The notes under the pieces: model-generated | Database searches by the model: none | Told to the model about the DNA's origin: nothing | What the model saw: the letters and a program-made list of their open reading frames with translations, nothing else | In this document: in pieces, positions 7,826-28,496 of the stretch | Layout of the letters: each line of letters opens with the position of its first letter | How positions within the stretch are numbered: position 1 is the first letter of the stretch | Made by a program: the position numbers and the translations under genes | DNA from: an uncultured Balneola sp. | GTDB taxonomy: Bacteria > Bacteroidota > Rhodothermia > Balneolales > Balneolaceae | Reading direction: 5' to 3' | Length of the DNA: 44,507 nucleotides | Assembly (NCBI GenBank): GCA_913058495.1 | Contig: CAJXQC010000025.1 | Location: forward strand, 1 to 44,507

Positions 7826-8005
7826 AAACTGTGCAATACTTTTAATAAAAAATGATATGTATGCTATTTACATACAGCATGATAAATTACGCAATTATTG
7901 TACCAATTTTTTATAGGATGTAGGATATAAATAGTAAATAGTGGTTGTTAGTAATAAAAACCATATATTGCACACTTACACAAACAATTATATAAGTAAA
8001 TTAAT

Positions 8006-8209
8006 ATGAGTACAGGAACAGTAAAGTGGTTTAATTCAGATAAAGGATATGGTTTTATAACACCTGATGAAGGTGGAAAAGACTTATTCGTACACCACTC
8101 TGAAATTCAAACTGATGGCTATGCAGAATTAAAGGATGGTCAAAAGGTAGAATATGAAGTAGGCGAAGGTCAAAAAGGACCATGCGCGAATAATGTTGTT
8201 GGTTTATAA
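8006..8209 (+). CDS. cold-shock protein (CspA family)
   Basis: The 67 residues form one cold-shock domain, a five-stranded OB fold that binds single-stranded RNA/DNA and melts RNA structure. RNP1 is KGYGFI (13-18) and RNP2 is DLFVHHS (26-32); length and spacing match CspA exactly. The gene stands alone, with 180 bp to the divergent secA gene. That stretch is AT-rich and would hold both promoters; a loose TATATTGC element lies near 7967, but I see no confident site. A strong intrinsic terminator follows at 8278-8313. The gene is likely abundantly expressed; whether it responds to cold cannot be read from the sequence. Confidence 0.97.
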
Positions 8210-8277
8210 GCCAATCATTACGTAGTTCCTGACTTAAAGAAAGGAATTTTCGGAAGCTTGCTTCCAACATATAAATT

Positions 8278-8313
8278 AAAGCCTTGTTCTGTTTACAGAG
8301 CAAGGCTTTTTTT
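8278..8313 (+). terminator. rho-independent terminator of the cold-shock gene
   Basis: AAAGCCTTGTTCTG and CAGAGCAAGGCTTT form a 14-bp stem (one G-T wobble) around the loop TTTA, followed by a T-run. This is one of the strongest hairpins in the window. A smaller GGAAG-CTTG-CTTCC hairpin lies just upstream at 8252-8265. Confidence 0.9.
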
Positions 8314-8369
8314 ATGGAATAAATTGATCAATGGAAACCATTACCTAATCGTTTTGATTCTCCTTTTCT

Positions 8370-9008
8370 TCAATCTTCAAACAGCGTTTTCATTTTTTCT
8401 AGATTAAGCTGATTGTGAATAGCACTAAAATTTTTCTTAGTACCAAACCATTTTAAAGCTTCTTGTTTGCTGATATTCGTAGTCTTGTCAAATAAATAAG
8501 AATGCCAGCTGCTAAAAGCCCAATTATTCGGATTTTTTACAAACCCATGATGTACGGGATTATTATGAATGTAGGCGATCAAACGAACAAAATATTCATC
8601 TGAATCGATTAGCTTACGCCTAAAATTGGGAATGAAGAGACTGCCTTTGCGGTCGTACTTCTTGTTGATGGATTTGGTATAAGAATTAAAAAGATTGGAG
8701 AATTGTTGGCTAACAATACTGTTCTCCAAACCTCCAAGGTCTGCCAGACCTTGGAGGTTTGGTTTATCTTTTTTCTTTCTGACAAACTCCAAAATTTCAT
8801 CTTCTTTTCTAACACGTACCATCAAGTGTAGATGATTAGGCATCAGGCAATAAGCAAATGTTTCTACTACAGGATGAAGATAATATTGGTAACGCCGCAA
8901 GAAGTACCGAAAATTTTCATCACACCGAAATAGGTTTTCATTTCCATTGGCATGTGTCCAAATGTGATAAGTATTTCCACTTTCAAGTGTTATCCGAGGT
9001 TGTGCCAT
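8370..9008 (-). CDS. IS200-like / RAYT-type Y1 transposase
   Basis: The 212-residue product from ATG 9008 has the HUH nuclease motif His59-Leu-His61 (MPNHLHLM) and the nucleophile Tyr146 in RLIAYIHNNP. Both are diagnostic of Y1 transposases of the REP-associated (RAYT) branch, which nick single-stranded DNA at palindromes. The frame is intact and the catalytic residues present, so it may be active. RAYTs are usually single-copy domesticated genes that act on scattered palindromes. Remarkably, residues 82-95 (about KPNLQGLADLGGLE) are encoded by a perfect palindrome. An upstream in-frame TTG (9035) would add nine poorly conserved residues. It lies alone between the cspA terminator and aconitase; no typical IS ends were found. 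Confidence 0.88.
   Translation of the reverse strand: MAQPRITLESGNTYHIWTHANGNENLFRCDENFRYFLRRYQYYLHPVVETFAYCLMPNHLHLMVRVRKEDEILEFVRKKKDKPNLQGLADLGGLENSIVSQQFSNLFNSYTKSINKKYDRKGSLFIPNFRRKLIDSDEYFVRLIAYIHNNPVHHGFVKNPNNWAFSSWHSYLFDKTTNISKQEALKWFGTKKNFSAIHNQLNLEKMKTLFED
8726..8762. repeat. perfect 37-nt palindrome (REP-like) inside the transposase gene
   Basis: CCAAACCTCCAAGGTCTG (8726-8743) is followed by one C (8744) and then its exact reverse complement (8745-8762). An 18-bp perfect stem this tight would make a very stable hairpin in single-stranded DNA or RNA. From memory, related AACCTCCAAGGTCTG...CAGACC palindromes occur many times in Bacteroidota genomes. I saw no second copy in this window. 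It stays in frame with the RAYT reading frame. Confidence 0.85.
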
Positions 9009-9128
9009 GGTTCTTGAATTGTTTAAGTTATTCAAGTAAGACCGATAAATGCTTGATTCCTTACAAAATATTATTGATTGCTTCTTGAAATGATAAAACC
9101 CTCAAAAACGTTATTCACAGAAAGACAA

Positions 9129-9153
9129 AGGGTTAAAAGATTTGTATCTTCCA
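9129..9153 (+). promoter_or_regulatory. possible Bacteroidota-type promoter element for aconitase
   Basis: The stretch GGTTAAAAGATTTGTATCTTCC contains AAGATTTG, one mismatch from the Bacteroidota -7 consensus TAnnTTTG. It lies about 40 bp before the acnA ATG. No good -33 TTG is seen at the expected distance, so this is weak. Confidence 0.3.
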
Positions 9154-9184
9154 AGTCTACTCGAATTTTTAAAATTATTCTGAA

Positions 9185-11890
9185 ATGAGCGACAAATTTA
9201 AAAGCACTAAACAAACATTTGAAACGGGTAATGGGGAAGCGACTTTTTATAGTCTTCCTAAGCTTACTGAAATGGGTTATGATAAAGTCAGCCGACTTCC
9301 ATTTTCGATAAAGATCTTATTGGAAGCCGTGTTGAGAGAAAACGATGGGTACGCAATAACAGATGCGGACATCGAAACACTGGCTACTTATAACGCAGAA
9401 AGCCCTGAAGGAGAAATTCCATTCAAACCATCACGTGTGGTTCTGCAGGATTTTACCGGAGTACCGGCAGTAGTTGACCTTGCTGCTCTTCGTTCTGCTA
9501 TGCAGCGAATGGGTGGGAAAGCAACAGATATCAACCCACAAGTTCCGGTTGATTTAGTTATCGACCACTCTGTTCAGGTTGATATGTTTGGCCAAGATGC
9601 GGCGCTCATGTTCAACGTTGAAAAAGAGATGGAGCGTAACAACGAGCGTTACGAATTCCTGAAATGGGGTAAAGAAGCTTTTGATAATTTCAGAGTAGTG
9701 CCTCCGGGACGCGGAATCGTTCATCAGGTGAATTTAGAATATTTAGGTCGTGGAGTTTTTACCCGCGAAGAAGCTGACGGAACCAAAACGGCTTATCCTG
9801 ATACTTTAGTAGGAACAGATTCTCATACAACCATGATCAACGGACTTGGAATTTTAGGTTGGGGTGTTGGTGGAATTGAAGCGGAAGCAGCAATGCTTGG
9901 CCAGCCTATTTCTATGTTGGTTCCTGAAGTAGCCGGAATGAAATTAACCGGAAAACTTCGTGAAGGCGTAACAGCTACCGATCTTACTCTTACTGTAACA
10001 CAAATGCTGAGAAAGCACGGAGTGGTTGGTAAGTTTGTGGAATTTTATGGTGAAGGCATCAGCAACATGAGTTTGCCTGATCGTGCTACTATCGCAAATA
10101 TGGCTCCTGAGTATGGCGCAACGATGGGTTTCTTCCCAATTGACAGCGAGTCGCTCCGCTATATGAGAAGAACCGGTCGTTCAGAAGAGTTAGTAAGTTT
10201 GGTTGAAAATTATACCAAAGCTCAGGGATTATTCAGAACAGATGATACTCCTGATCCTGAATTTTCGACGACACTTGAACTAGATCTAAGCACAGTGGAA
10301 ACTTCTTTGGCAGGACCAAAACTTCCGCACGACAGAATTACGCTTAGCAATATGAAGAAGGCTTTCGAAACTTCTTTGACCAGTGATAATCCTACGATGG
10401 GTTTCAATCTCGCTCAGGAAAGACTCGCCAGCAAAGGCTTGTATAAGAATGGTCAGGAAATTGAAATGACTCATGGTGATGTAGTAATTGCTGCTATCAC
10501 AAGTTGTACAAATACTTCTAACCCAAGTGTAATGCTAGGAGCAGGAATTGTAGCTAAAAAAGCTGTGGAGCGCGGACTAAAAGTTCCGGCTTATGTGAAG
10601 ACTTCTCTGGCTCCGGGATCGAGAGTAGTAACTGAATATTTGCAGGAAGCAGGTTTAACGGAATACATGGATAAGCTTGGATTCAACTTAGTTGGATATG
10701 GCTGTACAACTTGTATCGGTAACTCAGGACCACTTCCGGAAGCAGTTGAAACGGCAATTAAAGAAGGAGATCTTATTGCAGCAGGTGTTCTTTCCGGAAA
10801 CAGAAACTTTGAAGGTCGTATTCACCCATGGGTAAAAGCTAATTTCTTGGCTTCACCTCCATTAGTGGTTGCTTATGCTCTTGCCGGAACGGTTAATATT
10901 GACATGAATAACGATCCGATTGGTAAGGATAAAGATGGAAATGATGTTTATCTGAAAGAGATATGGCCGACAACAGAAGAAATTGCAGAGCATTTAGACA
11001 ATGCAATTCGTCCGGATCTTTTTGATAAAATGTATTCCGATATTTTCGAATCTCCGACCTGGGAAGAAATTCCTGTTTCAGGGGGAGATCAGTTTGCATG
11101 GAGTGAAGATTCAACCTACATACAGGAACCACCTTTCTTTATGGATATGAAGGAAGAGCCTGAGCCGATCAAGTCTATCGAAGGAGCTCGTGTACTTGTG
11201 AAAGTTGGAGATTCCATTACAACAGATCATATTTCTCCGGCAGGGAACATCAAAGAAGATGCTCCGGCGGGTGAATACCTGAAAGCACATGGAGTAGAAA
11301 AGAAAGACTTCAACTCTTACGGATCCAGAAGAGGAAATGACCGCGTGATGACACGTGGTACTTTCGCCAACGTTCGATTTAAAAATCAATTGGCTCCGGG
11401 AAAAGAAGGTGGATTTACTGAATACCATCCAACCGGTGAGATCACAAATATCTACGATGCTTCATTGAAGTATAAAGAGAATAATACTCCACTTATTGCC
11501 ATAGCAGGAAACCAATACGGAACGGGTTCGTCTCGTGACTGGGCTGCTAAAGGTACTAATCTGCTTGGAGTGAAAGCAGTTATTGCTGAATCTTACGAAA
11601 GAATTCACAGATCTAATCTGGTTCAGATGGGAGTACTTCCTCTTCAATTTAAAGAAGGAGAAACTCCGGAATCTCTTGGACTAGATGGTTCTGAAACATT
11701 TACTATTCATTTGAGTGATGATATAAAAGCTCGTGAAGATGTAAAAGTAACTGCAGTAACTGAGGATGGTAAAGAGATCAGCTTTACTACAAACAGTAGA
11801 ATTGATACACCGGTAGAGGTAGATTATTACCGAAATGGAGGAATTCTCCATACTGTTCTTTTAGATTACTTGAAGAAAAGTAAAAACTAA
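9185..11890 (+). CDS. acnA: aconitate hydratase AcnA
   Basis: This TCA-cycle enzyme interconverts citrate and isocitrate through cis-aconitate in the cytoplasm. At 901 residues it is the usual length of the AcnA/IRP1 type. The [4Fe-4S] ligands are Cys441 ([11 protein letters not shown]), Cys507 and Cys510 ([13 protein letters not shown]), the same spacing as E. coli AcnA. The C-terminal swivel domain carries [13 protein letters not shown] and [13 protein letters not shown]. The ATG at 9185 gives the expected N-terminus, [10 protein letters not shown]. It is monocistronic: the RAYT gene lies divergently upstream and an intrinsic terminator follows immediately. Codon use is like its neighbours and nothing is missing. 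Confidence 0.98.
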
Positions 11891-28081: not shown

Positions 28082-28099
28082 TCCAGTCTTTCGAAAAAT

Positions 28100-28172
28100 G
28101 CCAGTGTAGCTCAGTTGGTAGAGCAACGGTTTTGTAAACCGTCGGTCGTCGGTTCGACTCCGGCCACTGGCT
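28100..28172 (+). tRNA. tRNA-Thr (anticodon TGT)
   Basis: A complete cloverleaf can be drawn: acceptor GCCAGTG/CACTGGC, a D arm with AGCTCAGTTGGTAGAGC, anticodon stem ACGGT/ACCGT around loop TTTGTAA, and T arm GGTTCGACTCC. The CCA end is not encoded. It reads ACA and other ACN codons and is first of four clustered tRNAs. Confidence 0.97.
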
Positions 28173-28199
28173 CATTCATTGATTTATTGAAAAGAATTT

Positions 28200-28282
28200 G
28201 GGGAGATACCAAAGCGGCCAACTGGGGCAGACTGTAAATCTGTTGTCTTACGACTTCGTAGGTTCGAATCCTGCTCTCCCCA
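28200..28282 (+). tRNA. tRNA-Tyr (anticodon GTA)
   Basis: Acceptor GGGGAGA/TCTCCCC, anticodon loop CTGTAAA with GTA, and a long variable arm (class II tRNA) before GGTTCGAATCC. CCA is not encoded. Its wobble G is a target of queuosine modification, and queA lies 2 kb upstream. Confidence 0.97.
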
Positions 28283-28289
28283 CGCAAAA

Positions 28290-28362
28290 GCGAGCGTAAC
28301 TCAATTGGTAGAGTGTCACCCTTCCAAGGTGAATGTTGCCGGTTCGATCCCGGTCGCTCGCT
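28290..28362 (+). tRNA. tRNA-Gly (anticodon TCC)
   Basis: Acceptor GCGAGCG/CGCTCGC, anticodon stem CACC.../GGTG with loop containing TCC, T arm GGTTCGATCCC. CCA is not encoded. Third of the cluster. Confidence 0.97.
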
Positions 28363-28375
28363 CATTGGAATAGAA

Positions 28376-28447
<72 letters not shown>

Positions 28448-28496
28448 CTGTCGGTAATCGTTTTACAAATTTAATTAACACAAACAAGACAAAGAC

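Follow-up and report, generated by a model that had tools for sequence, protein, structure and literature searches.

A perfect palindrome lies in frame inside a RAYT gene of the window (the whole 44,507-nucleotide stretch of DNA analysed here, from an uncultured Balneola sp.), palindromes at the same place in related genes resemble palindromes that flank those genes, and, in vertically inherited RAYT genes at a common locus, the in-gene unit turns over without loss of pairing, its two arms changing in concert. RAYTs are domesticated transposases, and relatives of the RAYT DNA-cutting enzyme act on small DNA hairpins. Our best reading, to which we give about an even chance of being right, takes the palindrome to be a REP-like unit lodged in frame, which evolves in concert and of which this is the last remaining copy. 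The sequences are consistent with a RAYT gene that encodes its own putative recognition hairpin. The features of the locus are the following.

8006..8209, plus strand: 67-aa ORF resembling a cold-shock protein (named by eye), a neighbour of the RAYT gene
8370..9035, minus strand: RAYT / TnpA-REP-like HUH Y1 transposase gene, 221 aa from TTG, 212 aa from the ATG at 9008
8571..8573, minus strand: catalytic Tyr codon, Y155 of YIHNNP, a Y motif as in Table 1 of PMC6006769
8726..8762, no strand assigned: perfect palindrome, arms 8726-8743 and 8745-8762, 18 nt each, 100% complementary, 1 nt between them
8826..8834, minus strand: HUH motif codons H68-L69-H70, the motif of the window being NHLH
9185..11890, plus strand: aconitase-like gene (named by eye), a neighbour of the RAYT gene

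The palindrome falls within the minus-strand ORF at 8370-9035, between the HUH motif (H68, H70) and Y155, and its central base, 8744, is the first base of codon 98 in the TTG numbering. Counted from the TTG, it spans residues 92-103, encoding PNLQGLADLGGL, and takes in one further base, the first of the E104 codon. The initial annotation, which had described a perfect 18-bp stem with a single central base, in frame in the RAYT gene and between the HUH motif and the catalytic Tyr, was right on each of these points, the arms being 100% complementary and the codons at 8826-8834 and 8571-8573 bracketing 8726-8762; the residues it gave, 82-95, are roughly the same stretch if counted from the ATG. 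Among the 15 inverted pairs listed in the 44.5-kb window (arms of at least 14 nt, at most 300 nt apart), this is the sole pair with 100% complementarity. One thousand random synonymous recodings of the window's peptide (row L001 of our homologue set) reached a maximum of 14 of the 18 pairs, and the palindrome is therefore not a by-product of the peptide; the listing of inverted pairs and the recoding together rule out a chance origin. The palindrome folds at -30.8 kcal/mol as RNA (z -8.0) and at -20 kcal/mol as single-stranded DNA, and the window arm's own internal stem is 4 bp. A search of positions 7900-9300 against Rfam gave no structured RNA match at gathering scores.

The protein fits the definition of a RAYT (PMC6006769), an HUH motif together with a single Tyr in a Y---NP motif, by virtue of its NHLH and YIHNNP. 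The top Foldseek match of its AlphaFold model (mean pLDDT 89) was E. coli TnpA-REP, 4er8 (E 9.5e-9, TM 0.73 by target, 17% identity), which was also the sole match in the PDB to a profile of 36 homologues (E 5.2e-8). Against NCBIfam NF047646, 'REP-associated tyrosine transposase', the protein scored 70.3 bits (E 1.5e-19), below the cut-off of 80, and four relatives scored 57-71 bits; Pfam Y1_Tnp was narrowly missed, at 21 bits against a cut-off of 23. To judge from these scores, the window protein belongs to the same superfamily as NF047646 and lies outside the curated equivalog. It is RAYT-like, a putative hairpin-cutting enzyme. The variable insertion between beta3 and alphaC is present in the window RAYT, and it is there that the palindrome sits; in the model, residues 91-100 are the lowest-confidence part of the core (mean pLDDT 54) and form a linker between helices 78-88 and 103-126.

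The cold-shock-like and aconitase-like genes mark a fixed RAYT locus in the window's genus. The RAYT lies upstream of the same aconitase-like gene in five of the eight genomes of the genus, and in the remaining three neither the RAYT nor the cold-shock-like gene was found within 1480 nt upstream of the aconitase-like gene. The window RAYT is a resident gene in the genus and, judged by a within-genus dN/dS of 0.09-0.27, is under purifying selection. The palindrome is perfect in two of the five genus orthologues, those of the window's own genome (G000) and of G007, has one broken pair in G006 and in G001, and has two broken pairs, the first and the third counted from the centre, in G003. No compensated change was seen among these five orthologues, three of which have lost one or two pairs, and selection on pairing is thus not supported within the genus. 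Where the initial annotation had looked to orthologues to decide the matter, three of the four sisters speak against it, since their peptide is unchanged or almost so although one or two pairs are broken, whereas the wider family supports the unit. Synonymous differences within the genus amount to 0.063 in the palindrome versus 0.19-0.25 elsewhere in the gene (rank 7 of 201 windows), and 125 of 5000 shuffles gave a lowest 45-codon window as low as the one observed; the block with the fewest synonymous differences (window ~8690-8840) extends to both sides of the palindrome. A terminator-like hairpin at 8278-8309, 3' of the cold-shock-like gene, is conserved in four of five sister genomes inspected and is unrelated to the RAYT palindrome.

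When searched for at up to 2 mismatches in 29 bases, the palindrome occurs once in G000. It is therefore no repeat in the window's organism; a high-copy REP of G000 is ruled out, there being no second copy, and the half-site CCTCCAAGGT has three further single matches. Copy counts, which rest on exact patterns, place the palindrome type solely inside the RAYT in nine genomes (G000, G003, G007, G026, G028, G071, G075, G063 and G070), and in other genomes reveal dispersed copies of the internal type (for example, 8 in G069, 7 in G099 and 14 in G037), relatives with matches having 1-14 copies per palindrome type. G026 (locus L016) holds 13 copies of the type found in its flank, both beside the gene and dispersed, and one copy of the internal type; because the two types differ, the dispersed family does not simply stem from the in-gene copy. 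The unit appears to be the only one left in the window's lineage, and to have started to wear in the sister species.

Homologues were taken from 80 named loci (the best 80 of 554 confirmed) and from 128 genomes of the order, 56 of which had a match. Together these yielded 118 distinct ORFs of at least 100 bits, of which 113 with a recognisable HUH motif were scored and 107 were placed in a tree; among the best 80 of 554, the nearest named relatives include an 88% match in Balneolaceae UBA3186. A palindrome lies between HUH and Tyr in 47 of the 113 and none was detected there in 66, figures that are not a census of prevalence, since genes with the palindrome were part of the profile used to find homologues, and only the 80 best of 554 loci were taken as named loci; the motif finder, moreover, misplaced the HUH motif in at least L148, whose in-gene palindrome was left uncounted. 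Because 66 homologues have no detected palindrome, self-limitation of translation by an mRNA hairpin, a possibility raised by the initial annotation, would be no general need of these genes. Three of the genes with no detected palindrome (L044, L100 and L067) look by eye like worn remnants. Palindromes within ~400 nt outside the gene accompany 76 of the 113 homologues, with 33 having one both inside and outside and 23 having neither, and internal and flanking presence are not associated (33/14 versus 43/23, Fisher P 0.69). On a quick tree of 107 rows, in which 39 of 104 inner branches are open, the palindrome label needs 18 changes, nine of them forced by starred branches, against a shuffled mean of ~34.5; the branch that holds the window has an in-gene palindrome in 20 of its 21 rows.

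Across the 44 distinct internal units, 98.2% of arm cells pair, versus 66.0% (highest 72.7%) when the 3' arms are reshuffled, and there are 26 extra pair types; for the 18 distinct units of the window's clade the corresponding values are 97.8% and 78.8% (highest 89.3%). Joint change is also seen in G028, G070, G071 and G075, where the RAYT lies between the same genes and shared neighbours are 74-99% identical. Here, dS between RAYT genes is 1.38 for G070-G075, 3.06 for G028-G070 and saturated for the other four pairs, which is within the range of the neighbouring genes (0.90 to saturated). The palindromes of G071 and G075 have identical arms, and the five unlike pairs differ by 3, 3, 4, 6 and 6 compensated changes and by 1, 1, 1, 0 and 0 others. 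Replacement of the whole RAYT at this locus is disfavoured, as its dS, although mostly saturated, is like that of the neighbours and dN alone is raised. The RAYT proteins of this locus (genes L186, L188, L189 and L190) evolve far faster than those of the neighbours, dN being 0.17-0.27 versus 0.005-0.104, with dS similar and mostly saturated. Two further same-locus sets, G025/G063/G069 (whose shared genes are mainly on one side) and G031/G066, have one palindrome type each. In five same-locus pairs, synonymous change within the palindrome affected 1/9, 1/9, 1/9, 0/9 and 1/6 identical-residue codons, versus 0.35-0.55 outside it; the binomial P values for this deficit are 0.019, 0.12, 0.039, 0.0008 and 0.089, the pairs not being independent, and the window ranks are 15/141, 10/98, 10/122, 1/82 and 21/128, of which one is striking. 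The G025 and G066 genes in this comparison are incomplete.

Internal units also resemble the units beside their own genes. In particular, the similarity between internal and own-flank arms averaged 12.09 of 15 (n = 33). Permuting the flanks gave 9.15 (sd 0.30), with a maximum of 10.4 in 20,000 permutations, a test that ignores shared descent. The internal unit resembles its own flank (score of at least 11) in 26 of the 33, and the own flank is top-ranked in 17. The seven with no flank match (own score 4-9) include L016 and the three rows from the window's genus, where the nearby palindrome is an unrelated terminator-like hairpin. Extragenic units near RAYTs (n = 72) are sharply bounded 16 nt to each side of the centre, the outermost base being A/T in ~0.9 and the next base outward reaching at most 0.40, so that the core of the unit is 33 bp, a multiple of three. 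In a REPIN, made of two inverted REP hairpins, each half is a hairpin in its own right; here, an arm-internal stem of at least 5 bp is present in 61% of the 44 distinct internal units versus 3% of shuffled arms. The within-arm pair -14/-4 co-varies most, in 41 of 44 internal units (shuffles at most 35) and 55 of 65 outside (shuffles at most 38), and the pairs -10/-8 and -15/-3 are not above shuffles. The GT[AG]G foot was found beside none of 45 internal palindromes (control 6/180) and beside 6 of 122 extragenic ones, which is not above background (control 26/488), and is absent from the flanks of the window's palindrome. A canonical GT[AG]G REP is rejected on this count, and of the many dispersed genome copies that would mark a canonical REP, G000 has one.

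The unit respects the reading frame. Its centre falls on a first codon base in 41 of 46 odd-length internal palindromes, and 19 of the 21 that are open in all three phases use that phase, which yields peptides of the form xLxGFxNLxGL. The common phase could stem from shared descent or from the peptide. Within the 80 named loci, the RAYT open frames, 51.7 kb in all, contain 29 palindromes scoring at least 14 (a few of them 5' of the start codon); the 518 kb of the 436 other ORFs contain 3, and the remaining 181 kb contains 83. Of the three in other ORFs, one is the RAYT of L040 and another is found 74 nt 5' of the L083 RAYT.

In the mechanism we favour, the palindrome would be a REP-like unit, its 33-bp core a minimal inverted REP pair, lodged in a RAYT of Bacteroidota/Balneolota type at its variable beta3-alphaC linker. 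The RAYT would recognise the folded, single-stranded form of the unit, and the in-gene unit would be overwritten in place when strands are exchanged with cognate units, so that the unit would be retained as a nucleic-acid element and not as a peptide. Such exchange would be harmless because 33 bp is a multiple of three and the linker is disordered. In the window's lineage, flanking and dispersed units would have gone, leaving the in-gene copy as the last, with decay starting in the sister species. The suggestion of the initial annotation, that the gene may have received its own REP-like substrate, is supported in part by the recoding and by the resemblance of same-place units in relatives to their flanks, and is weakened by the sole copy and the missing GT[AG]G foot. 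That annotation had named, as findings that would tell against it, orthologues encoding the same peptide with non-palindromic codons and a genome with no other copies; the lack of other copies in G000 and the broken pairs of the sisters go half way towards this, and are outweighed by the evidence from the wider family.

Turnover with pairing intact could result from any of three processes: RAYT-driven exchange with cognate units, template switching, or selection. The resemblance to flanks favours RAYT exchange, whereas the sole copies favour template switching or selection as present processes; indeed, that no donor copy of the type was found in nine genomes speaks against copying as a process of the present. 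A possible but rather unlikely alternative is that the arms are homogenised without any function, template switching in replication (quasipalindrome correction, a mechanism described in PMC8794818 and PMC8604942) copying arm to arm in an old REP-like unit whose types drift with no RAYT action or selection. This would account for compensated changes in genomes that have no other copies of the type, and in the window's genus the single broken pairs resemble intermediates that have yet to be corrected. Homogenisation predicts gradual drift, however, yet ACCTGACAGGT and ACCTCCAAGGT, among other types, are met again both in distant RAYTs and in flanking units; the match of 26 of 33 internal units to their own flanks also goes against it, and the co-variation within arms (-14/-4, 41/44, shuffles at most 35) is not expected from outer-arm switching alone. 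It is unlikely, in our view, that the hairpin is selected as a cis element, whether through putative binding of the RAYT to its own gene or mRNA (autoregulation) or as a seed for REP re-amplification. The scarcity of synonymous change in the palindrome, both in the genus (0.063 versus 0.19-0.25) and in the five same-locus pairs, fits such selection, as do the very stable RNA hairpin and the persistence of perfect or one-mismatch sole copies at dS of at least 1.4. Against this stand the weakness of the five pairs when taken as window ranks, with two incomplete genes (G025 and G066); the lowest-synonymous block of the window's gene, which reaches past the palindrome; the 66 of 113 homologues with no detected palindrome; and the loss of pairs that is ongoing in the window's genus.

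We regard as very unlikely a plain relic, that is, one REP-like insertion tolerated in a loop with maintenance of no kind. The sole copy, the absence of flanking units, the decay in sister species and the position in a loop are all as a relic would have them, and PMC6006769 suggests that such insertions have little impact; the relic is nonetheless disfavoured because of the compensated changes in same-locus genes, and the 97.8% pairing of the 18 units in the window's clade exceeds anything reached on reshuffling (78.8%, highest 89.3%). Least of all do we expect selection on the peptide with the palindrome incidental to it, which we hold to be highly improbable. The single codon phase of 41 of 46 palindromes, with its peptides of shape xLxGFxNLxGL, is in its favour, although this bias may reflect either the peptide or shared ancestry; for 45 of 47 internal palindromes, by contrast, none of 1000 synonymous recodings matches the observed pairing (1 and 2 of 1000 do so in the other two), and across homologues the peptide itself changes together with the palindrome. 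As a full explanation, a peptide-driven palindrome is ruled out by the recoding.

Units of this kind are already known. Quentin et al. 2018 (PMC6006769) describe intragenic REPs in the tnpA-REP genes of TnpA-Y1 subclass 2.4, placed between HuH and Y, and what is added here is the joint change of the arms, even in genomes in which no other copy was found; the sections of that paper compared here report no test of arm covariation or of flank match. As described there, subclass 2.4 shares with the window an in-frame REP-like palindrome within a tnpA-REP gene, a variable beta3-alphaC insertion, Bacteroidota among its hosts and the motif YIxNNP (YIHNNP in the window). Unlike subclass 2.4, the window has NHLH in place of NH[IFV]H (NHFH, NHVH or NHIH being found in 89 of the 118 homologues), and at the W of the 'WQ' motif F is found in 107 of the 108 homologues with a recognised motif (the remaining one has W, the motif was not recognised in 10 of the 118, and the window has FI). 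Moreover, a GT[AG]G foot is absent here, and the window's copy is the sole one in its genome. Because two subclass motifs and the GT[AG]G foot are missed, we do not file the window RAYT in subclass 2.4. Nunvar et al. 2010 (PMC2817692) report that RAYTs and flanking REPs evolve together and that RAYT genes are fast-evolving; the coupled unit described here, unlike those flanking REPs, is inside the gene. Palindromic elements that lie in frame within ORFs are also known from Rickettsia (RPE; PMC3733652), where, according to that account, they occur in many ORFs, whereas the 436 other ORFs examined here gave 3 matches, of which the RAYT locus itself accounts for two. Likewise, the coding palindromes of Nematomorpha mitochondria, as reported in PMC6649704, are perfect inverted repeats inside coding sequence, but are much longer and have no link to a nuclease gene. 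Literature searches returned no report of an in-gene REP or of RAYT arm covariation beyond PMC6006769, which is no proof of absence, and a search for the palindrome sequences showed no RAYT paper among the matches listed.

The benefit that RAYTs confer and their specificity for cognate sites are open questions to which an in-gene palindrome speaks. A palindrome that lies in the gene, resembles the flanks, and changes in sequence yet stays paired offers a natural history of the enzyme's cognate site, and the orthologues that share a locus but differ in palindrome are a set for the study of specificity by hairpin swapping. More speculatively, and with considerable doubt, RAYTs of this type might harbour, within the gene, a resident copy of the hairpin that they recognise, kept palindromic by selection or by the enzyme's strand exchange, such that the gene would keep both an address and a seed from which to rebuild the repeat family after extragenic loss.

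Several other observations concern RAYT-like genes and repeats in these genomes. At L023 (G037 contig C165), near-identical RAYT genes stand in tandem, with one palindrome type inside each and between them. The window's genome has a second, distant RAYT-like gene (35% identity; contig C1 ~139579-140880; L003, L204 and L205), near which two unrelated palindromes are repeated as a pair ~690 nt apart; one of these has two occurrences in the genome, both at that locus. A short RAYT-like remnant with stop codons lies at C1:192661-192828 (L005) of the same genome. In the window itself, the listing of inverted pairs and repeats revealed, at 28096-28448, repeated pieces that resemble tRNA genes.
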